Source: Bordetella genomosp. 5
GTDB lineage: Bacteria; Pseudomonadota; Gammaproteobacteria; Burkholderiales; Burkholderiaceae_B
Reading direction: 5' to 3'
Assembly: GCF_002261475.1 (NCBI RefSeq)
Contig: NZ_NEVN01000007.1
Span: forward strand, 310,001 to 374,000
DNA length: 64,000 nucleotides
Below, in pieces: positions 4,715 to 15,753 of this stretch (position 1 is its first letter; every line of letters begins with the position of its first letter). The notes beneath the pieces were generated by a model that worked only from the letters and a program-made list of their open reading frames with translations, searched no databases and was not told where the DNA came from. A program made the position numbers and the translations under genes.

Positions 4715-5407
4715 TCACAAGCCGTCACCTTGCAGTCGCCGGGTCCAGTCTTCGGCCAGACCGGCGTCCCGCCGCTTGGCGAACAGCGTCCGCCACCCTG
4801 GCGAAAGCTCCGGCATCTCCGCCAGCTCGGCCAGCGCGTCGCCTTCGACCAGACGACGATTGAGCACGTCCTGGATCCGCGCCAGGGGCCAGTTCGGCCG
4901 CGGCCGCTCGGCGAGCACGAGCGTGTCGCCGGCTGCGAGCATCCCCTCTTCGAGCACGCGGTAATACCAACCGGTGCGGCCGCCCTGCTGCACCTGCGCG
5001 GCCATGCCCTTGTGGTCGAACCGCACATCGAGCTTCCAGCAGGGCTGACGCGCCTGCGACACCTGCAGCACCAGGTCGCCACAGCGGTACACATCGCCGA
5101 TGCAGACCTCGTGTTCGGTCAGGCCGCGGGTGCTGATGTTCTCGCCGAAGGCGCCGGGCTGACGCAGCACCGCGCGCTCGCCGAGGCGCTCCCGCCAGGC
5201 CGGATAATGGTCGTAGGCATAGTGGTGCACCGCTTTCTCGGGGCCACCATGAAAGCGCGGATCGGCCTGCTCGTCGCCCACGAGGCCGAGGCGGCCCACG
5301 CGCACGGGGCCGCTCAAGGCCGTCTTGGCGATGGCGCTGCGTTTGCCGCTATCGCCCAGCGGCGCCACGGCGCCGGTCAGCACCGCTTCGATGATCCAGC
5401 CACTCAT
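4715..5407 (-). CDS. MOSC domain protein, YiiM-like
   Basis: A 230-aa MOSC-fold protein of the YiiM type, a family tied to molybdenum-cofactor-dependent reduction of N-hydroxylated bases. Visible signatures are GDEQADPRFHGGPEKAVHHY, FGENISTRGL and the conserved Cys123 in the QARQPC stretch, the expected cofactor-binding residue. The ATG at 5407 overlaps the stop of the DUF455 gene as ATGA, so the two are probably translated together. The longer in-frame extension upstream lies inside that gene and is rejected. The substrate is inferred from the family only. Confidence 0.85.
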   Translation of the reverse strand: MSGWIIEAVLTGAVAPLGDSGKRSAIAKTALSGPVRVGRLGLVGDEQADPRFHGGPEKAVHHYAYDHYPAWRERLGERAVLRQPGAFGENISTRGLTEHEVCIGDVYRCGDLVLQVSQARQPCWKLDVRFDHKGMAAQVQQGGRTGWYYRVLEEGMLAAGDTLVLAERPRPNWPLARIQDVLNRRLVEGDALAELAEMPELSPGWRTLFAKRRDAGLAEDWTRRLQGDGL

Positions 5408-6228
5408 GTCGCCTCCTGGGGCGTTCCGGCGACCAGCGCCGCCAATTCCTCGTCGTCGAATCCGGCCGCGCGGCGCGCCTCGACATTGAAGGGTCCGCGC
5501 TGACGTGGCGCGCCATAACGCGCCGCCAGCTCGGCGTACTGCGCCACCGGCGCCAGACCGCGCTCGGCGCAAACCTGCCGGTACCAGCGATTGCCGATCG
5601 CCACATGGCCGATCTCGTCGCGCAGAATGATATCGAGGATGGCCGCCCCCTCGGCATCGCCGGCGCGCGCCAGCTTGTCGCGGATGAGCGGTGATGCGTC
5701 GAGCCCGCGCGCCTCCAGCGTGCGCGGCACCAGCGCCAGCCGCGCGAGCAGATCATCGCGGGTGCGGTGGGCCATGTCCCACAGGCCGTTATGCGCCGGG
5801 AAATCGCCGTAGGCATGGCCGAGCGTGCCGAGATGGCGATTGAGCAGGTCGAAGTGGTAGGCCTCTTCGCGGGCGACGAAAAGCCAGTCGCGGTAAAAGG
5901 CCGCCGGCAGCCCCGGGTAGCGCCAGATCGCGTCGAGCGCCAGATTGATCGCGTTGAACTCGATGTGGGCCAGGGCATGCAGCAAGGCGGCGCGCCCCTC
6001 GGGCGTCTGGACCGAGCGCTGCCGCACCTGCACGGGCGGCACCAGCTCGGGCGCACGCGGGCGTCCCGGCAGGCCGGCCGGCTCGGCGAGCACGGCGTCG
6101 GCGCCGGGCGGCAGGTCGTCGCCGATCGCCGCCACGGCCGCCAGCTTGGCCGGCCATTCGGCGGCGCACAGCGCGTTCAGCGCCAGGGAGCGCAGCGTGG
6201 GCTGCGGCGCAACTGCATTCATGTCCAT
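5404..6228 (-). CDS. DUF455 ferritin-like family protein
   Basis: A 274-aa all-helical protein of the DUF455 family, a ferritin/rubrerythrin-like fold. Repeated Glu and His motifs on long helices (HIEFNAINLALD, EEAYHFDLLNRHLG, RDEIGHVAIGNRW) look like a carboxylate-bridged dimetal site. The reaction is not established; relatives of this fold include tRNA and small-molecule hydroxylases. Its four-base overlap with the following MOSC gene suggests a shared redox or base-modification task. This is inference. Confidence 0.85.
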   Translation of the reverse strand: MDMNAVAPQPTLRSLALNALCAAEWPAKLAAVAAIGDDLPPGADAVLAEPAGLPGRPRAPELVPPVQVRQRSVQTPEGRAALLHALAHIEFNAINLALDAIWRYPGLPAAFYRDWLFVAREEAYHFDLLNRHLGTLGHAYGDFPAHNGLWDMAHRTRDDLLARLALVPRTLEARGLDASPLIRDKLARAGDAEGAAILDIILRDEIGHVAIGNRWYRQVCAERGLAPVAQYAELAARYGAPRQRGPFNVEARRAAGFDDEELAALVAGTPQEAT

Positions 6229-6329
6229 ATCCGCAAGAGCGAGCCCGGCGCAATGGCCGGGCGATGCAATAACCTCGGCCCGCGCACGGCTACCCCGGCA
6301 CGGACACCGGCAGACTTTATCATTGCGCC

Positions 6330-7469
6330 ATGGACCCCGCGTATCGCCTTTGCATCGAATCCTCGCTCGCCGCCATCGATCCCGACGCGTGGAACGCCCT
6401 GACGGACGGTCACCCCTGTCTGCAACATGCCTATCTGCATGCGCTGCACGAGACGGGCTGCGCCACGCCGCGCACCGGCTGGACGCCGTACTACCTGACG
6501 CTGCGTCATGACGAGGCGCTGGCCGGCGCGGTGCCGCTCTACCTCAAGACGCACTCCCGCGGCGAATACGTGTTCGACTTTGCCTGGGCCGATGCCTACG
6601 AGCGTCATGGCCTGCGCTACTACCCGAAGCTGCTGGCCGCCGTGCCGTTCACGCCGGTGCCCGGCCGCCGCCTGCTGGCGCGTACGCCCGCCGAGCGCGA
6701 CGCGCTGGCCGAGGGCCTGGTCGGGCTCGCGCGCGCCCTCAAGGTCTCGTCGCTGCATGTGCTGTTTCCGGATCCGGACGAGCGCGATGCGCTGGCGCGC
6801 GCCGGCTGTCTGGTGCGCGAAGGCGTGCAGTTCCATTGGCAGAACGCGGGCCATCCGGACATGGCCGCCTTTCTGGCCGCGTTCAATCACGACAAGCGCA
6901 AGAAGCTGCTGCAGGACCGCAAGCGGGTCGCGGCCGCCGGCGTGCGGTTCCGTCGCCTCGACGGTCCCGACATCACCGCCGACCATCTCGATTTTTTCTA
7001 TGCCTGCTACTGCCGGACCTACTTTCAGCACGGCAACCCGCCCTATCTCACCCGCGCCTTCTTCGAACGGCTGCATCGCGAGATGCCCGGGCAGCTGATG
7101 CTGGTGCTGGCGGAACGCGAGGGCGAACCCGAGCCGGTCGCCGCGGCGCTCAATCTGCGCGGCGACGATGTGCTCTACGGCCGCTACTGGGGCACCCGCG
7201 AATTCATTTCGGGCCTGCACTTCGAGACCTGCTACATGCAGGCGATCGAGTACTGCATCGCGCACGGACTGCGGGCCTTCGAGGGCGGCGCGCAGGGCGA
7301 ACACAAGATGGCGCGCGGGCTGATGCCGGTGCCGACGTGGTCGGCGCACTGGATCGCCGATCCCCGCTTCGAGGCGGCGATCGACGAATTCCTGACTGAT
7401 GAAACGCGCTCGGTGGATGCCTACCGGGATGCGCTCGCGCACCACACGCCGTTTCGGCGCGAAGGCTGA
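6330..7469 (+). CDS. FemAB-like GNAT N-acyltransferase (PF04339 type)
   Basis: The 379-aa protein matches the family often called peptidoglycan biosynthesis/GNAT-like (PF04339). Landmarks are the N-terminal HPCLQHAYLHALHETG, the central DKRKKLLQDRKRV segment and the C-terminal FEGGAQGEHKMARGL motif. The family is predicted to move an acyl group onto an amino group, but I know of no demonstrated substrate for it. It is transcribed away from the DUF455 gene and ends 16 bases before the stop of the convergent DUF1854 gene. Confidence 0.82.
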   Translation: MDPAYRLCIESSLAAIDPDAWNALTDGHPCLQHAYLHALHETGCATPRTGWTPYYLTLRHDEALAGAVPLYLKTHSRGEYVFDFAWADAYERHGLRYYPKLLAAVPFTPVPGRRLLARTPAERDALAEGLVGLARALKVSSLHVLFPDPDERDALARAGCLVREGVQFHWQNAGHPDMAAFLAAFNHDKRKKLLQDRKRVAAAGVRFRRLDGPDITADHLDFFYACYCRTYFQHGNPPYLTRAFFERLHREMPGQLMLVLAEREGEPEPVAAALNLRGDDVLYGRYWGTREFISGLHFETCYMQAIEYCIAHGLRAFEGGAQGEHKMARGLMPVPTWSAHWIADPRFEAAIDEFLTDETRSVDAYRDALAHHTPFRREG

Positions 7470-7485: not shown

Positions 7486-7962
7486 TCAGAGAAAGCGGTC
7501 GAGCAGCTTGCGGCTGTGGCGATCGAGGGCCAGCGCGTCGCGGATCAGATAGTGGATCCCGTGGCTGTCGGAGATCAGCAAGGTGTGGCCGGTCAGCCGG
7601 CGAATGTCTTCTTCGCCGCGCAACACGAACGACACGTCGCCGCGATCCGTCGAGACCTTCCAGGTCGAGGGCGTCGCGTAGGTGGACACCGCCACGATGC
7701 GCTTGATCTCGGGCATGAACTCGCGCCCGGCCAGCTCCGCATCGAGCAACTCGCGCGCCGCTGGCGCCAGCGCGGCCATGTCGCCGATCCACACCAGCTC
7801 GTGACCATCGGCGCTCATGAGCGACAGGCCGCCGCGCGGATCGCTCACCGGAAACGCGCGCACCGGATAGACGCCCTCGTGCACCGCGCCCGACTCTTCC
7901 TGGAAGACCAGGCGGCCCATGGCATTGCGCTGCAGCCGCAGATTGGAAAGTGAATGCGCCAT
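7486..7962 (-). CDS. Cyanophycin-locus DUF1854 protein
   Basis: A 158-aa DUF1854 protein. The core contains GHELVWIGDMAAL, EFMPEIKRIV, TPSTWKVSTDRG and IHYLIRDALALD. The family is repeatedly found beside cyanophycin synthetase genes, as here; its activity is unknown. No signal peptide or membrane segment is visible, so it is probably cytoplasmic. The ATG at 7962 begins four bases after the stop of the ABC gene; an ATG at 7992 would overlap that gene by 26 bases. Neither has a strong Shine-Dalgarno sequence, so coupling to the ABC gene is likely with either start. Confidence 0.82.
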   Translation of the reverse strand: MAHSLSNLRLQRNAMGRLVFQEESGAVHEGVYPVRAFPVSDPRGGLSLMSADGHELVWIGDMAALAPAARELLDAELAGREFMPEIKRIVAVSTYATPSTWKVSTDRGDVSFVLRGEEDIRRLTGHTLLISDSHGIHYLIRDALALDRHSRKLLDRFL

Positions 7963-7966
7963 GGCG

Positions 7967-10249
7967 TTATGCGACGGCGACGATGTCGTCATCGTCTTCG
8001 CCGTTTTCGGAGTCGTTGTTGCGGGCCTGGGCCTGATAGAGGCGGTAGTACGCGCCCTCGCGCGCCATCAGCGCCTCGTGCGGCCCTTCTTCGATCACCT
8101 GACCGCGATCCAGCACCACCAGCCGGTTGGCGCGGCGCAGGGTCGACAGACGGTGGGCGATCGCGATGGTGGTGCGGCCACGCACCAGATTGTCGAGCGC
8201 CTTCTGGATTTCTTTCTCGGTGGTGGTATCGACCGAGGAGGTCGCTTCGTCGAGGATCAGGATGCGGGGGTCGATCAGCAACGCGCGGGCGATCGAGATG
8301 CGCTGGCGTTCGCCGCCCGACAGGGCCTGGCCCCGCTCGCCCACGAGCGAATCGTAGCCATGGGGCAGGCGCAGAATGAAGTCGTGCGCATGCGCGGCGC
8401 GCGCCGCGGCGATGATCTCTTCGCGCGTCGCCTCGGGCTTGCCGTAGGCGATGTTGTCGGCGATGGTGCCGAAGAACAGGAACGGCTCCTGCAGCACCAG
8501 CCCGATATGCCGGCGGTAATCCGACACGCGCAGCGAGCGGATGTCGGTGCCGTCGACCAGCACCGAGCCCTCCGAGACGTCGTAGAAGCGGCAGATCAGG
8601 TTGATCAGCGTGCTCTTGCCCGAACCGCTATGGCCGACCAGGCCGATCATCTCGCCGGGCGCGATGTCGAGGTTCAGGCCGCGGATCACCTGGCGGTTGC
8701 CATAACGGAAGCCGACGTCACGCAGCTTGATGTGCCCCTGCACGTGCGGCAGCGCGACGGGCCGCGCGGGCTCCGGCACGCTCGAGACGTGATCGAGAAT
8801 ATCGAAGATGCGCTTCGCGCCCGCCGCCGCCTTTTGCGTGACGGACACGATGCGGCTCATCGAATCGAGCCGCGTGTAGAAGCGCCCGATATAGGCCAGG
8901 AAGGCCGCGAGCACGCCCACGGTGATCTGATTCTGCGAGACCTGCCAGATGCCGAAGATCCACACCACCAGCAAACCGATCTCGGTGAGCAGCGTGACGG
9001 TCGGCGAAAACAGCGACCACACGGTGTTCACGCGATCGTTGACTTCGAGGTTGCGGTTGTTGGCCTCGCGAAAGCGCTGCACTTCGCGCTTTTCCTGGGC
9101 AAACGCCTTCACCACGCGGATGCCGGGAATCGTATCGGCCAGGACGTTGGTGATCTCGGACCAGATGCGATCGACCTTCTCGAAGCCGTGCCGCAGGCGA
9201 TCGCGCACCACGTGGATCATCCACATGATGAACGGCAGCGGCACCAGCGTGACCAGGGCGAGCCACGGATTGATCGTGAAGAGGATGGCCGAGGTCATGA
9301 CGATCATCAGCACATCGTTGGCGAAATCGAGCAGGTGCAGCGACAGGAACACGCAGATGCGGTCGGTCTCGCTGCCGATGCGCGCCATCAGATCGCCGGT
9401 GCGCTTGCCGCCGAAATACTCGAGCGACAGGTGCTGCAGATGCTCGTAGGTGGTCGTGCGCAGATCGGCGCCGATACGCTCGCTGACCCAGGCCAGGATG
9501 TACGTGCGGGCCCAGCCCAGCGCCCACGCCAGGATGGCCGAGGCGAGCAGGCCACCGAGATACAGCCGCACCTTGTTGTAGTCGATCACCTCGCCGTTCT
9601 GGTAGGGGATCAGCACCTCGTCCATCAGCGGCATGGTGAGGTACGGCGCCACCAAGGTGGCGGCGGTACCCAGCAGCGTGAGCAGGAAACCAACGAGGAG
9701 CGGCAGGCGGTAGGGCCGGGCGAAGCGCCACAGGCGCAGCAGCGCCCAGGTCGAGGGCGCCTCGGCGGGTTCGCCGTCGCAGTGCGGACACTCCTCCTGG
9801 TCGGCGCTCAGCAGCGCCTGACAGGTCGGGCAGACATGGACGTCGGCGTCGGCGGCCGGCCTGTTGGACAGACGCAACGCCTGCTGGCTTTCGAATTGGC
9901 CCAGCAGACGCAGCGCGGCGGGATTGCGGCCCAGCGTGAAGCGCCAGAGCCCGAGGCGCTGTGTGCCGTCATCGAGCTCGAGGCTGGCCGCCCCGGCGTG
10001 GTCGTGCAGATTGAGCCGCAGCGCGCTGGAATAGGACCAGGCCTGCCAGAGGCCGTCGGCGTCGCGGGCCAGCAGGCGCTGGTCGGTGGCGAGCACCAAC
10101 CCGCTCGCGTACCGCAGGCGCGCGTCGAGGTCGGTTTCGAGCCACGCCAGGATGGACTCGCCCTCGCCCAATTGGGCGTCGGCCTCGGCCCGCCACGACG
10201 AGGGCAACTCGCGCGTGTTGGCGCCGGAAGTTGTTTGGTGATTTTTCAT
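7967..10249 (-). CDS. Cyanophycin-associated ABC exporter with PH-like and zinc-ribbon N-terminus
   Basis: A 760-aa half-size ABC exporter fused to an unusual N-terminal region. Residues about 25-125 ([11 protein letters not shown] followed by alternating strands) look like a bacterial PH-like domain. Cys140, 143, 154 and 157 form a CxxC-x10-CxxC zinc ribbon. Six membrane helices follow (about 170-450), then the nucleotide-binding domain with Walker [10 protein letters not shown], the signature LSGGERQ and the Walker B/D-loop [11 protein letters not shown]. The C-terminus is strongly acidic. It should work as a homodimer. Its conserved place beside cphA genes ties it to cyanophycin metabolism, but its cargo is unknown. 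It is divergent from cphA' and is followed by DUF1854. Confidence 0.88.
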
Positions 10250-10340
10250 CAGAACGCGTATTACACCGCTCCCAGCCGGCCATGAGTCATCTACTCAGGC
10301 CACGGACCGAAAACGTGTCCGTTCCTTACAACAGCGCGAG

Positions 10341-10415: not shown

Positions 10416-10492
10416 ACACATAGGCTACACCCCGTCCGGCACCAGTCTGGCTCTACGGCCTGCCCCGGGAAATCCCTCCCCTGCCTATGTGT
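10416..10492 (+). repeat. 10-bp perfect inverted repeat in the cphA' leader
   Basis: ACACATAGGC at 10416-10425 and its exact complement GCCTATGTGT at 10483-10492 flank 57 bases. The right arm ends 20 bases before the cphA' start codon. It could close a long stem-loop in the leader RNA or form two half-sites for a looping regulator. The sequence alone does not decide between these. Confidence 0.5.
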
Positions 10493-10511
10493 AAACGCAC
10501 CCCAAGCATCC

Positions 10512-13127
10512 ATGAAAAAAAAGGACATTGAATTTCTCGATGTCGTGGCTTTGCGCGGCCCGAACATTTGGACGTACCGACCGGTGCTGGAAGCCTGGGT
10601 CGACATCGGCGAGTTGGAAAACTACCCGTCGAATGTCATTCCCGGCTTCTACGAGCGGTTGACGGCCTGGCTGCCCACGCTGATCGAGCACCGGTGCAGT
10701 CCGGGTGTGCGTGGAGGCTTCCTGCAGCGCCTGCGCGAAGGCACCTGGCCCGGTCACATCCTCGAGCACGTCACGCTCGAGGTGCAGAACCTGGCCGGCC
10801 TGCCGGGCGGCTTCGGCAAGGCCCGCGAGACGTCCACGGTGGGGGTCTACAAGGTGGTGGTGCGCGCCTGGCACGAACAGGTCACCCGCGCCGCCCTGGC
10901 GGCCGCGCGCGACTTGGTCATGGCGGCCATCGAGGATCGGCCGTTCGACGTCGACGACGCGGTGAGCGACCTGCGCACCCTGGTCGACCGTCATTGCCTG
11001 GGTCCGAGCACGGCCTGCATCGTCGATGCCGCCGATGATCGCGATATTCCTTATATTCGTTTGTTTGAGGGCAATCTCGTCCAGTTCGGTTACGGCGCGC
11101 GTCAGCGCCGCATCTGGACCGCCGAGACCGACCGTACCAGCGCCATCGCCGAAGGCATCTCGCGCGACAAGGATCTCACCAAGTCGCTGCTCTCCACCGC
11201 CGGCGTGCCGGTGCCCGAGGGCCGTCTGGTCGAAACCGTCGAAGACGCCTGGGACGCCGCGCAGGACATCGGCCTGCCGGTGGTGGTCAAGCCGTACGAC
11301 GGCAACCACGGACGCGGCGTCTTCACCAACCTCATGACGCGCGAAGAGGTCGAATCGGCCTACGCCGTCGCGGTCGAGGAAGGCAGCGGCGTGATCGTCG
11401 AGCGCTTCGTGCTGGGCATCGAGCATCGCCTGCTGGTCGTGGGCGACCGCATGGTGGCCGCCGCCGCCGGCGAAGAAGCCTGGATCACGGGCGACGGCAC
11501 GCAGACCGTCGACGAGCTCATCGCGAGCCAGATCAACACCGATCCGCGCCGCGGCCGCACCGAAAACCACCCGCTCAATCCGGTCCGGCTGGATTCGGCC
11601 GCACGCCTGGAGATCGCGCGCCAGGGCCTCACCGCCGACAGCGTGCCGGCCGAAGGCCTGCGCGTCCTGATTCAGCGCAGCGGCAACGTCGCGTTCGACG
11701 TGACCGACAAGGTCCACCCCGACATCGCCGAGCTGGTCGTCCTGGCCGCCCGCGTCGTTGGCCTGGACATCGCCGGTGTCGACCTGGTCGTACAGGACAT
11801 CACCAAGCCGCTCGAGGCACAGCGTGGCGCCATCGTCGAAGTCAACGCGGGCCCGGGCCTGCTGATGCACCTGAAGCCGGCCGAAGGCACGCCGCGCCCG
11901 GTGGGCCGCGCGATCGTCGACCATCTCTTCCCCGACGGCGAGTACGGCCGCATTCCGGTCGTCGGCATCACCGGCACCAACGGCAAGACCGTGGTGGCGC
12001 GCCTCGTCGGCCGCATCCTGCACCTCTCCGGCAAGCAGACCGGCGTGGCCTGCAGCGAGGGCCTGTACCTGAACAAGCGCGCGGTCCAGCAGGGCGATTG
12101 CGCCACCTGGGCAGCGGGCCGCCGTGTGCTGATGAACCGCTCGGTCGACGCCGCCGTGATCGAAAACGACAGCGGCGTGATCCTCGGCCAGGGCCTGGCC
12201 TACGACCGCTGCCAGGTCGGCGTGGTCACCAACATCGACGAAGGCGATCACCTCGGCGACTTCGACATCAACGAAACCGACCGTCTGTTCAACGTGTTCC
12301 GCACGCAGATCGACGTGGTGCTGCCGGGCGGCGTGGGCGTGCTCAACGCCCGCGACCCGCGCGTGGTCGAGATGGCCGAGCTCTGCGACGGCGAAGTGAT
12401 GTACTTCGGGCTCACGCCCGACGTCCCGGCGCTCGCCTCGCACGTGGCCCTCGGCAAGCGCGCCGTGTTCGTGCGCGACGGCCGCATCGTGCTGGCGCGC
12501 GGCCGCGACGAAGAGCAGCTTGCCGACATCGCCGCCGTGCCGCTCACCCATGGCGGCCGGGTGCAGTTCCAGATCGAAAACGTGCTGGCCGCGGTGGCCA
12601 CGGCCTGGGCGCTCGACGTCCCGGTCGAGGTGATCCGCGCCAGCATCGAGACCTTCGACATCGACCAGGCCGATGCGCCGTGGCAGTTCACGCTGTTCGA
12701 ACGCGACGGCGTGTCCGTCGTGGTCGACGACGTGCACAACGTGCCCGGTCTGCGCGCGCTGCTCGCGTCGGTCGACCAATTTCCCAGCCAGTCGCGCACG
12801 GCCGTTTACTCGGCCGGCCAGGACCGGCGCGACGAAGACCTCATCGAGCAGGGTCGCCTGCTCGGCGCGGCATTCGATCGTGTCGTCCTCTACGATGACT
12901 GCACCGTGAAGAGCAAACGCCCGGCCGGTCAGGCCCGCGCGCTGCTGCGTCAGGGGCTGGAACAAGGAGGCCGGACCGTCGAGATTCTCGACGAACCCGA
13001 CCATGCGCAAGCCATTCTCCGGGTGCTCGCGCAGCCGGTGGCTGGTGAGTTCGTGCTGCTGCAATCCGATGAAGCGTTTTCTGGTCCGACCATAGACCTG
13101 GTTCGCCGCTGGATCCAACAAAACTGA
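10512..13127 (+). CDS. cphA': Cyanophycin synthetase paralogue CphA' with altered Mur-ligase site
   Basis: An 871-aa cyanophycin synthetase homologue. The N domain (about 1-160) carries HILEH at 82-86, the HxxEH site that in cyanobacterial CphA1 forms a primer-making hydrolase. The ATP-grasp domain (about 220-480) has KPYDGNHGRG, keeping the His of the canonical loop, and EVNAGPG. The Mur-ligase-like domain has an intact P-loop GTNGKT at 488-493. However, the usual ARGGIL motif reads DSGVIL, and the usual DY(A/G)HNP motif reads DDVHNV at 739-744. ATP-grasp chemistry (Asp addition to the backbone) therefore looks competent, while Arg addition looks doubtful. No good Shine-Dalgarno sequence precedes the ATG. 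It is co-directional with cphA, 55 bases upstream. Confidence 0.93.
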   Translation: MKKKDIEFLDVVALRGPNIWTYRPVLEAWVDIGELENYPSNVIPGFYERLTAWLPTLIEHRCSPGVRGGFLQRLREGTWPGHILEHVTLEVQNLAGLPGGFGKARETSTVGVYKVVVRAWHEQVTRAALAAARDLVMAAIEDRPFDVDDAVSDLRTLVDRHCLGPSTACIVDAADDRDIPYIRLFEGNLVQFGYGARQRRIWTAETDRTSAIAEGISRDKDLTKSLLSTAGVPVPEGRLVETVEDAWDAAQDIGLPVVVKPYDGNHGRGVFTNLMTREEVESAYAVAVEEGSGVIVERFVLGIEHRLLVVGDRMVAAAAGEEAWITGDGTQTVDELIASQINTDPRRGRTENHPLNPVRLDSAARLEIARQGLTADSVPAEGLRVLIQRSGNVAFDVTDKVHPDIAELVVLAARVVGLDIAGVDLVVQDITKPLEAQRGAIVEVNAGPGLLMHLKPAEGTPRPVGRAIVDHLFPDGEYGRIPVVGITGTNGKTVVARLVGRILHLSGKQTGVACSEGLYLNKRAVQQGDCATWAAGRRVLMNRSVDAAVIENDSGVILGQGLAYDRCQVGVVTNIDEGDHLGDFDINETDRLFNVFRTQIDVVLPGGVGVLNARDPRVVEMAELCDGEVMYFGLTPDVPALASHVALGKRAVFVRDGRIVLARGRDEEQLADIAAVPLTHGGRVQFQIENVLAAVATAWALDVPVEVIRASIETFDIDQADAPWQFTLFERDGVSVVVDDVHNVPGLRALLASVDQFPSQSRTAVYSAGQDRRDEDLIEQGRLLGAAFDRVVLYDDCTVKSKRPAGQARALLRQGLEQGGRTVEILDEPDHAQAILRVLAQPVAGEFVLLQSDEAFSGPTIDLVRRWIQQN

Positions 13128-13138
13128 TAACCGACTCA

Positions 13139-13158
13139 GCGCCGTCGCAAGACGGCGC
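13139..13158 (+). other. Intercistronic hairpin between cphA' and cphA
   Basis: GCGCCGTC and GACGGCGC form a perfect 8-bp stem closed by a GCAA tetraloop, followed only by ACTTT. That is too weak for a full terminator. It may partly terminate transcription or protect the cphA' 3' end, setting the ratio of the two proteins. Confidence 0.5.
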
Positions 13159-13182
13159 ACTTTCCCGACAGGAATGCCTGCC

Positions 13183-15753
13183 ATGGAAGTTTCTCGCATC
13201 CGCGCGCTGCGCGGCCCCAATCTCTGGAGCCGCAACACGGCCATCGAGGCAATCGCCTCCTGCGCCGACCAGGAATGTTCGCTGGCGTCGCTGCCTGATC
13301 TCGAAGCGCGGCTGCGAGCCCGCTTTCCCCAGCTCGGGCTGTTACAGCCCGAGGGTCACGCCGACTCCGTGTCGCTGGCCCACGTTCTGCAGATCATCGC
13401 GCTGTCATTGCAGGCCCATGCGGGCTGTCCGGTGACCTTCGGGCGCACTTCGCCCACGATCGAACCCGGCGTGTTCCAGGTCGTTGTCGAGTACAGCGAA
13501 GAAGAAGTCGGCCGCCTTGCCATGACGCTGGCCGTCGAGCTGATCGAGTCGGCGCAGGCCGACACGCCGTTCGACCTGCCCGACGCGCTGCGCCGCCTGC
13601 GCGAGCTCGACGAAGACGTGCGCCTCGGTCCCAGCACCGGCTCGATCGTCAACGCCGCCACCGCGCGCAACATTCCCTACCATCGCCTCACGCAGGGCAG
13701 CATGGTGCAGTTCGGCTGGGGCCGGCGTCAGCGCCGCATCCAGGCCGCCGAGACCGACCGCACCAGCGCGATCTCCGAATCGATTGCGCAGGATAAAGAC
13801 CTGACCAAGATGCTGCTCGACGCCGCCGGCGTGCCCGTCCCGCTCGGCCGCTCGGTCGACAGCGCCGAGGCCGCCTGGGAAGCCGCCCAGGAGCTCGGTG
13901 GCCCGGTGGTGGTCAAGCCGCGCGACGGCAGCCAGGGCCGCGGTGTCGCGGTCAACATCGAAACGCGCGAGCGCGTGCTGGCCGCCTTCGAGGCCGCCTC
14001 CGACATCAGCTCCGAAGTGATCGTCGAGCGCTACATTCCGGGCCACGACTTCCGTCTGCTGGTGGTGGGCAATACGCTCGTCGCCGCGGCCCGCCGCGAC
14101 CCGCCGCAGGTCACCGGCGATGGCGTGCAGACCATCCGCCAACTGGTCGAGCAGGTCAATGCCGACCCGCTGCGCGGCGATGGCCATGCCACCTCGCTCA
14201 CCAAGATCCGTTTCGACGACATCGCGCTGGCCACCCTGCGCAAACAGGGTTACGAGGCCGACTCGGTGCCGCCCGCCGGCACGCTGGTCGTGCTGCGCAA
14301 CAACGCGAACCTGAGCACCGGCGGCTCCGCCACCGACGTGACCGACGAAGTGCACCCCGAAATGGCCGCCCGCGCCGTGACGGCCGCGCGCATGATCGGC
14401 CTGGACATCTGCGGCGTGGACGTGGTTGCCGAGACGGTCCATCTGCCGCTCGAAGACCAGCACGGCGGCGTGGTCGAGGTCAACGCGGCGCCGGGTCTGC
14501 GCATGCACCTGAACCCCTCGTTCGGCAAGGGCCGCGCGGTGGGCGAAGCCATCGTGGGCCAGATGTTCGCCGACGGCGACGATGCGCGGATTCCCGTCAT
14601 CGCGGTGGCGGGCACCAACGGCAAGACCACCACGGTGCGCCTGAGCGCGCACCTCCTGACCTGCGCCGGCAACAACGTCGGCATGACGAACTCCGACGGC
14701 GTGTACGTCGGCAAGCGCCGCATCGACACCGGTGACTGCAGCGGCCCGCGCAGCGCGCGCCGCATCCTGCTGCACCCCGAGGTCGACGCGGCCGTGTTCG
14801 AAACCGCGCGCGGGGGCATCCTGCGCGAAGGCCTGGCCTTCGACCGCTGCGACGTCGCCATCGTGACCAACATCGGCATGGGCGACCACCTGGGTCTGGG
14901 CTATATCAGCACCGTCGAAGACCTGGCCGTGGTCAAGCGCGTGATCGTGCAATACGTGAAGAACAGCGGCATGGCCGTGCTCAACGCGGGCGATCACATC
15001 GTGGCCGAGATGGCCAGCGCCTGCCCGGGCGAGGTCACCTATTTCGCGCTCGACCGCAACCATCCCCTGATCGCCACCCATCGGGCCCAGGGCAAGCGCG
15101 TGGTCTATCGCGATGGCGACCACATCGTGGCCGCTCAAGGCACCCAGGAAGTCACGCTGCCGCTGGCCGCCATTCCGCTCACGCGCGACGGCGCGATCAC
15201 CTTCCAGGTCGAAAACGCCATGGCCTGCGTGGGCGCGGCCTGGGCGCTCGGGCTGGATTGGCAGGTCGTGCGCGACGGCCTCGCCAGCTTCGTCAACGAC
15301 GCCGCCACGGCGCCGGGCCGCTTCAACGTGTTCGACTACCGCGGCGCCACCCTGATCGCCGATTACGGCCACAACCCCGACGCCATCCTGGCGCTGGTGC
15401 AGGCGGTGCAGGCCATGCCGGCCAAGCGCCTGAGCGTGGTCATCAGCGGCGCGGGCGACCGGCGCGACGAAGATCTCAGCCGCCAGACCGAGATCCTCGG
15501 TGATGTGTTCGACGACGTGATTCTCTACGAAGACCAATGCCAGCGCGGCCGCGCCGACGGCGAGGTGCTCGCGCTGTTGCGCCAGGGCCTGGCCAACGCA
15601 CAGCGCGCCAACCATGTCGAAGAGATCCGCGGCGAGTTCATCGCCATCGACCGCGCGCTCGAACGCCTCAACCCCGGCGACCTCTGCCTGATCCTGGTCG
15701 ACCAGGTCGAAGAAGCGCTCGCGCACATCGCCGAGCGCGTGGCCGGCCGCTGA
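13183..15753 (+). CDS. cphA: Cyanophycin synthetase CphA with altered N-terminal hydrolase motif
   Basis: An 856-aa synthetase that builds cyanophycin, a poly-Asp backbone with Arg on each side chain. The ATP-grasp domain shows KPRDGSQGRG and EVNAAPGLRMH. The Mur-ligase domain has GTNGKT at 477-482, an intact ARGGIL motif and DYGHNP from residue 727. The N-domain site that reads HxxEH in CphA' reads HVLQI here (67-71), so the Glu is replaced by Gln and the second His is lost. The His of the ATP-grasp DGNHGRG loop is also Gln. I chose the ATG at 13183 because AGGA lies nine bases upstream; an ATG at 13174 directly abuts that AGGA. Confidence 0.93.
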   Translation: MEVSRIRALRGPNLWSRNTAIEAIASCADQECSLASLPDLEARLRARFPQLGLLQPEGHADSVSLAHVLQIIALSLQAHAGCPVTFGRTSPTIEPGVFQVVVEYSEEEVGRLAMTLAVELIESAQADTPFDLPDALRRLRELDEDVRLGPSTGSIVNAATARNIPYHRLTQGSMVQFGWGRRQRRIQAAETDRTSAISESIAQDKDLTKMLLDAAGVPVPLGRSVDSAEAAWEAAQELGGPVVVKPRDGSQGRGVAVNIETRERVLAAFEAASDISSEVIVERYIPGHDFRLLVVGNTLVAAARRDPPQVTGDGVQTIRQLVEQVNADPLRGDGHATSLTKIRFDDIALATLRKQGYEADSVPPAGTLVVLRNNANLSTGGSATDVTDEVHPEMAARAVTAARMIGLDICGVDVVAETVHLPLEDQHGGVVEVNAAPGLRMHLNPSFGKGRAVGEAIVGQMFADGDDARIPVIAVAGTNGKTTTVRLSAHLLTCAGNNVGMTNSDGVYVGKRRIDTGDCSGPRSARRILLHPEVDAAVFETARGGILREGLAFDRCDVAIVTNIGMGDHLGLGYISTVEDLAVVKRVIVQYVKNSGMAVLNAGDHIVAEMASACPGEVTYFALDRNHPLIATHRAQGKRVVYRDGDHIVAAQGTQEVTLPLAAIPLTRDGAITFQVENAMACVGAAWALGLDWQVVRDGLASFVNDAATAPGRFNVFDYRGATLIADYGHNPDAILALVQAVQAMPAKRLSVVISGAGDRRDEDLSRQTEILGDVFDDVILYEDQCQRGRADGEVLALLRQGLANAQRANHVEEIRGEFIAIDRALERLNPGDLCLILVDQVEEALAHIAERVAGR

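Follow-up and report, generated by a model that had tools for sequence, protein, structure and literature searches.

Within a 64,000-nucleotide stretch of the Bordetella genomosp. 5 genome (contig NZ_NEVN01000007.1, positions 310,001 to 374,000; the whole stretch is referred to here as the window), two homologues of cyanophycin synthetase, CphA' and CphA, are encoded by open reading frames (ORFs) arranged in tandem on the plus strand. These proteins probably constitute a natural, subfunctionalised split synthetase (N+G-M-/N-G+M+), with cuts made by CphA' restarting synthesis. The case is built on sequence comparison, in which a reciprocal loss of active sites, the conservation of these losses, the grouping of the paralogues and a linkage to ATP-binding cassette (ABC) transporter and DUF1854 genes have been detected. 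Neither protein holds all three CphA1 sites in one polypeptide. Both score above the curated cut-off of 877 bits of the cyanophycin synthetase family model NF010623 (CphA' 1270 bits, CphA 1256 bits), and they are the only places in the whole genome to do so.

Reciprocal site losses in CphA' and CphA

Sites are compared in the numbering of SuCphA1, the enzyme of Synechocystis sp. UTEX2470, and the residues scored are the catalytic ones named in PMC9262961 and PMC9427784. In the window, CphA' retains all eight hydrolase residues of the N domain (H57, C59, F67, R70, H79, E82, H83 and E87). An initial annotation had placed HILEH at CphA' residues 82-86 (10755-10769) and HVLQI at CphA residues 67-71. 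Both positions are confirmed, the latter when counted from Met4 (13183), where CphA homologues begin; in the ORF starting at 13174 the motif occupies residues 70-74 (13381-13395). The alignment to a solved CphA1 (SuCphA1, PDB 7lg5) which that annotation had proposed, with attention to Glu82 and the zinc ligands, puts HILEH and HVLQI on one helix (H79-H83), in keeping with its claim that HILEH corresponds to the HxxEH site. The hydrolase with Glu82 that it had named agrees with the published Cx19HxxEH motif (PMC9262961). CphA' keeps the complete set, whereas CphA is without H83 and without the C59 loop, nine residues around the Cys ligand having been deleted. That CphA has exchanged this Glu for Gln and lost the second His holds for the window protein, but the Glu-to-Gln change is not a general lesion, position 82 being Glu in 59 of 122 CphA rows, Gln in 42 and another residue in 21. 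An AlphaFold2 (AF2) model of CphA' (24 sequences; predicted local distance difference test, pLDDT, 80.7) matches TeCphA1 (7wae) with template modelling (TM) scores of 0.89/0.88, and places H82, E85 and H86 of the protein on helix 80-94. The model of CphA has a weak G domain and fits poorly, its best-ranked match reaching TM 0.48; no claim is based on it.

Table 1. Positions in the window of the two genes, their diagnostic sites and the divergent neighbouring genes.
Feature	Coordinates	Strand	Remarks
CphA'	10512..13127	+	871 aa; N-domain hydrolase site kept; aspartate site (G domain) and M site degenerate
CphA' Cx19HxxEH site	10686..10769	+	EHRC residues 59-62; HILEH 82-86
CphA' stretch, SuCphA1 R323 = Gly	11427..11474	+	
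Large G-omega loop of CphA' without STGG (396-399)	11670..11702	+	
CphA' VEVNAGPGLLMH, R458 -> Leu	11835..11870	+	
CphA' degenerate M site	11973..12179	+	GTNGKTVV; ENDSGV replaces ETARGG
CphA	13174..15753	+	859 aa; aspartate-recognition residues and M site kept, hydrolase site lost
CphA N-site remnant (QPEGHADSVSLAHVLQI)	13345..13395	+	Cys loop deleted; HVLQI replaces HxxEH
CphA P-loop G, H267 -> Gln	13915..13944	+	KPRDGSQGRG
"Cyanophycin metabolism-associated ABC transporter" (NF052233)	7967..10249	-	divergent; transmembrane and ATPase domain, MsbA-like
"Cyanophycin metabolism-associated DUF1854 family protein" (NF052234)	7486..7992	-	

A search for related loci with CphA' returned 65 loci, 61 of them with CphA'. 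In 60 of these 61, CphA lies directly downstream, the other being cut by a contig end, and the closest CphA' among the loci retrieved is that of Bordetella genomosp. 1 (93%). Genome samples at the levels of order (399 genomes), class (274) and phylum (249), which overlap, were also searched, and the wider survey comprised 79 picked places and one filler, plus 11 plasmid loci; for the two-match order genomes 60 places were read, roughly one per genus, with the one-match genome G030 among them. Weak Mur-type matches (L063-L065), repeats (L147-L157 and L161-L171) and two CphA fragments of 547 and 474 aa (L094) were dropped, and L001 and L100 have no full CphA owing to contig ends. The resulting alignment holds 278 proteins: 124 CphA', 122 CphA (including the unpaired L158) and 32 single-copy CphA1, SuCphA1 included. 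Paired loci number 121 with the window, 118 of which are distinct, the same contigs having been retrieved twice as L010/L089, L038/L107 and L039/L145.

The reciprocal pattern, an intact N site in one protein and intact synthetase sites in the other, was found in 121/121 paired loci. Among 70 non-redundant loci (CphA G domains less than 90% identical), which are free of the doubled contigs, the N set is complete in 70/70 CphA' vs 0/70 CphA and the M set in 0/70 vs 70/70. Mean identities over 4000 sampled locus pairs follow the same division, with 0.688 for CphA' vs 0.626 for CphA in the N domain and 0.532 vs 0.709 in the M core, the G domain being close at 0.706 vs 0.739.

In CphA', the eight N-site residues are identical in 124/124 rows. 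Every row has lost R323 (Gly in 122) and R458 (Leu in 117), loop positions 396-398 are absent throughout and position 399 in 123/124, and the seven-residue M set (K499, T500, T501, E558, R561, D585 and H586) is complete in 0/124. It has been reported for TeCphA1 that N394 and R323 touch the beta-carboxylate of the substrate aspartate, with R458 near the alpha-carboxylate, and that each Ala mutant is impaired; N394 is retained in 120/124 CphA'. The window protein reads GTNGKTV where GTNGKTT is expected from CphA1, and its M-lid is present in degenerate form, the lid being missing in 72/121 CphA'. One CphA' (L068) has lost several ATP-site residues and is without H267, D431 and N452, yet has all eight N residues. 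Positions 45 and 79 are separated by a segment of 34 residues in 121/121 CphA' and of 25 in 104/121 CphA. All 124 CphA' carry R at M-core position 603 and D at 607, and in these proteins the two are among only 18 of 226 M-core columns that are at least 97% conserved, vs 72 in CphA. The corresponding SuCphA1 residues (S and E) are in contact with the chain that occupies the N site (PMC9262961), and the dead M domain of CphA' may have been kept where it serves the cutter.

In CphA the losses are reversed. R323 and R458 are both present in 122/122 CphA and 32/32 single-copy CphA1, while the M set is complete in 122/122 CphA and in 23/32 single-copy enzymes, the latter falling short through Ser in place of Thr500 or Thr501 and, in one case, through Asn585. 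C59, H79, E82 and H83 occur together in 0/121 paired CphA and in 1/122 CphA rows (only L158), compared with 29/32 single-copy CphA1. Of the G and M residues scored, CphA otherwise retains all, with the exception of H267 (Gln), E215 (Ser in the window) and Thr522, which is Ser in 62/122 rows; an SuCphA1 E215 mutant retained half of its activity (PMC9427784). H79 survives in 104/121 paired CphA, the Cys loop being shortened. A substitute Glu/His set in the N pocket of CphA would have spoken against the initial annotation; none replaces C59 and H83 in the alignment, by which the pocket was judged, and among the conserved Cys, Asp, Glu and His columns of this domain Cys29, Cys94 and several Glu are kept, with no set that stands in for them. 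The conserved Cys residues of the CphA N domain (13183-13680) fall at columns aligned to 29 and 94 (115/121 and 119/121). Among single-copy plasmid enzymes, the N site is not intact in the CphA1 of Deinococcus deserti (L182) and Chryseobacterium (L174), and the latter also carries Gln at position 267.

Origin of the pair and its genomic surroundings

Two quick trees, in which 25 of the 121 paired loci were used (L073 being left out of the second), place CphA', CphA and the single-copy enzymes each on one side of a branch, with Shimodaira-Hasegawa-like approximate likelihood ratio test (SH-aLRT) values of 96-100. With a root set between single-copy enzymes, a single stem leads to both CphA' and CphA (branch support 96 and 99), in line with one old duplication having produced the two. 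An apparently unsplit relative was found in a genome outside the class (L158/L183; 6284-11782 in L183), where DUF1854 and ABC genes are divergent from a single CphA gene that carries the N, aspartate and M residues together with Gln267. The usual place of CphA' is empty at this locus; the contig ends inside the M lid of the CphA gene, assembly contamination is 8%, and a second copy may lie downstream. The protein groups with CphA in a G-domain tree (93) and with CphA' in an N+G+M tree (92), a placement that might be expected of an early branch, and the locus looks like the state before duplication. A pair also occurs in a metagenome-assembled genome labelled Moraxellaceae (L061); the CphA' of this pair clusters with that of Gallionella, possibly as a result of mis-binning.

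The ABC and DUF1854 genes, whose names are those of NCBIfam, lie upstream of the pair and divergent from it. They are found at 60/61 related CphA' loci, the exception lying at a contig end. In the order sample (thresholds E <= 1e-100 for CphA and E <= 1e-250 for ABC), CphA was detected in 148/399 genomes and ABC in 133, all within the 148, with ABC present in 131/134 two-match genomes and 2/14 one-match genomes. Exceptions to the linkage are three two-match genomes without an ABC match (G086, G122 and G229) and two one-match genomes with one, namely G030, whose CphA is cut by a contig end (L100), and G358. The transporter was searched in the order and class samples only. In the class sample it occurs in 5/274 genomes, all with CphA, and is absent from the other nine CphA genomes, each of which has one match. 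G489, among the five, has a single match over threshold, but CphA' is present on reading of its locus. In the phylum sample CphA occurs in 14/249 genomes, with two matches in 11 and one in 3, including the unsplit G838.

Cyanophycinase (TIGR02069) was detected over cut-off in 10/133 ABC-positive vs 11/15 CphA-positive, ABC-negative genomes (Fisher p 2.8e-8, the genomes being related). The Bordetella genome itself has no cyanophycinase match at E <= 1e-20, its only S51-family match being a 234-aa protein that looks PepE-like by eye; an IaaA-family match is present and no IadA was found over cut-off. An annotated cyanophycinase lies near a single CphA1 in 9/11 plasmid loci (L172, L173 and L175-L181; not L174 or L182). 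On two of these plasmids, from Ruegeria and Roseateles, a shorter gene of the Mur-ligase family comes after cyanophycinase and the single CphA1 (L181 6251-8020 and L172 8720-10591), possibly representing another two-ligase arrangement. Further upstream in the window, DUF455 and FemAB-like genes (5404-7469) have upstream relatives in 33 and 34 retrieved loci, all labelled Achromobacter or Bordetella, and do not occur in the wider locus set. An antisense ORF of 919 aa (10485-13244, minus strand) covers CphA'; like the frames at 7919-10285 (plus) and 13405-15726 (minus), it is probably a high-GC artefact.

Function of the pair

The proposed history begins with an ancestral three-site CphA1 next to a DUF1854/ABC-transporter unit, which would then have been duplicated. 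CphA' would have retained the zinc endo-cyanophycinase of the N domain, carried by a scaffold with dead synthetase sites (N+ G- M-), and CphA the ligation of backbone (Asp) and side chain (Arg), with loss of the cutter (N- G+ M+). The two proteins most likely associate, CphA extending chains, some of which CphA' would cut into short oligomers from which synthesis would restart. The initial annotation's suggestion that CphA' cuts polymer on behalf of a CphA that cannot is supported by the comparisons above, and CphA' has moreover lost residues needed for synthesis. Published work on CphA1 gives this scheme a precedent. SuCphA1 with its G and M sites inactivated, supplied in trans, makes the primer-dependent TmCphA1 primer-independent, an engineered SuCphA1 N-G+M+/N+G-M- heterodimer is functional, and SuCphA1 E82Q is inactive without primer; when sequences are reduced to 70% non-redundancy, 83% of CphA1 carry the Cx19HxxEH motif (PMC9262961). 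In Accumulibacter, whose sequences lie outside the present comparison, both cphA copies are evenly transcribed (PMC10687191), which fits a stoichiometric complex. On this account CphA' would bind zinc and cut, a CphA with Gln267 would be active, the two would form a heteromer, and primer-making would be the purpose.

Several observations weigh against the split synthetase. All rows are of one origin, so that the counts do not represent independent events. Most CphA' keep the ATP-site residues, with H267 in 120/124, for which a pure hydrolase would have no evident use. The His at position 267 is held to stabilise the acylphosphate; in CphA it is Gln in 119/122 rows and His in only three, compared with His in 30/32 single-copy enzymes. 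Because H267A served to inactivate the G site of SuCphA1, synthesis by CphA is not assured. This objection is eased by the unsplit L158 gene, which also has Gln, and by the three paired CphA with His. The binding of CphA' to CphA is itself presumed, and W672, a residue of the SuCphA1 tetramer, is variable in every group and uninformative. In the absence of primer, the engineered SuCphA1 heterodimer fell somewhat short of the activity of its all-in-cis counterpart (PMC9262961), and a 2024 review states that no cyanophycin was observed in wild-type R. eutropha despite its two homologues (PMC11362209).

That the cutting serves primers, rather than the recycling or trimming of polymer, is an inference. 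CphA' could be an endo-cyanophycinase that mobilises product or trims its length, as a substitute for CphB or so as to give pieces of exportable size, and not mainly a primer maker. The transporter linkage, the rarity of cyanophycinase in ABC-positive genomes and its absence from the Bordetella genome favour such a role, which is nonetheless judged unlikely, as the N domain of SuCphA1 works slowly and releases mainly 4-mers from the segments tested (PMC9262961), a poor basis for full mobilisation, and as the primer role has a direct published precedent. Because of the same transporter linkage and missing cyanophycinase, a trimmed and exported product stays conceivable: in this tentative scheme, of rather low probability, the pair would be no storage synthetase, with CphA building chains, CphA' cutting them to a set length, and ABC and DUF1854 exporting cyanophycin-like oligopeptides. 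Separate genes would then set the balance of making and cutting, and neither cyanophycinase nor a granule would be needed, a corollary that is doubtful to the same degree.

Retention of H267 and the ATP-site residues in most CphA' would also suit a CphA2-like polymerase whose G domain links preformed beta-Asp-Arg dipeptides, as would the frequent loss of the M-lid, CphA2 being without P-loop M and M-lid (PMC9427784); such a pair was earlier named CphA1/CphA2 (PMC5178258). This is nevertheless improbable, given that Stanieria CphA2 (8fxh) keeps R323, the aspartate-site residue compared, which every CphA' has lost, that CphA2 is described as being without the N-site motif which every CphA' has kept (PMC9262961), and that the L068 protein has dispensed with H267, D431 and N452 as well. 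Marginally less probable still is a structural or regulatory subunit with a relic hydrolase site, for which the mostly conserved ATP site and the plausibility of a heteromer may be cited; the eight site residues are among only 24 invariant columns of 158 in the N domain (hypergeometric 9e-8, an indicative value as the rows are related), while the M-site residues drift in the same protein. Decay of a redundant copy, to which the degenerate G and M sites and the often lost C-terminal lid might point, can be given hardly any weight against long open frames in 124/124 rows, an invariant N site and a conserved order with CphA and ABC/DUF1854. A natural split synthetase is the best explanation.

Comparison with known systems

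Gene pairs of similar content have been published. The Group 1 cluster comprises two adjacent cphA genes and an ABC transporter, with no cphB reported (PMC10687191); Sideroxydans has an adjacent cphA pair and Herminiimonas two cphA copies, both described as having no cyanophycinase (PMC5178258; PMC5670224), and R. eutropha also has two copies (PMC11362209). The absence of cyanophycinase is noted in three of these four accounts, which, in the parts available, treat the pairs as two synthetases. The occurrence of two cphA genes with an ABC transporter and no cphB is thus already known, and the division of active sites between the copies appears to be what is new. No description of such a reciprocal loss was found in the literature searched, most subscription papers being outside its reach, and a search on DUF1854 found no paper. 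In 2013, Adames and colleagues reportedly noted that part of the J-loop is missing from CphA' of R. eutropha H16.

To the authors of the N-site study, no other polymerase was known to have a site devoted to making primers; they also point out that expression cannot tune synthesis against cutting in CphA1, since both reside in one protein (PMC9262961). Nature appears to have separated the two activities, with two CphA genes in 134/399 order genomes. The split predicts that one gene of a pair expressed alone would understate activity, co-expression being the right test, and it raises the question of the cargo of the linked ABC transporter.

Among characterised enzymes, SuCphA1 (7lg5/7txv), with its self-priming N domain, shares the N-G-M fold, the Cx19HxxEH cutter and the G and M residues with the window pair, but has all three sites in one chain, here spread over two genes. 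Cyanobacterial CphA2 resembles most CphA' in its inactive M domain and lost M-lid (a lid that the window CphA' has in degenerate form) and differs in having no N-site motif, in keeping R323 (8fxh) and in polymerising dipeptides. The primer-dependent TmCphA1 is, like window CphA, a synthetase without the N-site motif (PMC9262961), and the motif is likewise absent from A. baylyi CphA1 in the alignment; both keep H267, unlike CphA here. At the level of the locus, the tandem CphA'/CphA genes with divergent ABC and DUF1854 match the Group 1-type cluster (PMC10687191). A close parallel is the engineered SuCphA1 heterodimer, together with the G-/M- mutants combined with TmCphA1 (PMC9262961), in which the active sites are divided as in the window pair; that split is a laboratory construct, whereas the pair described here is natural, clade-wide, marked by lid and loop deletions, and known from sequence.

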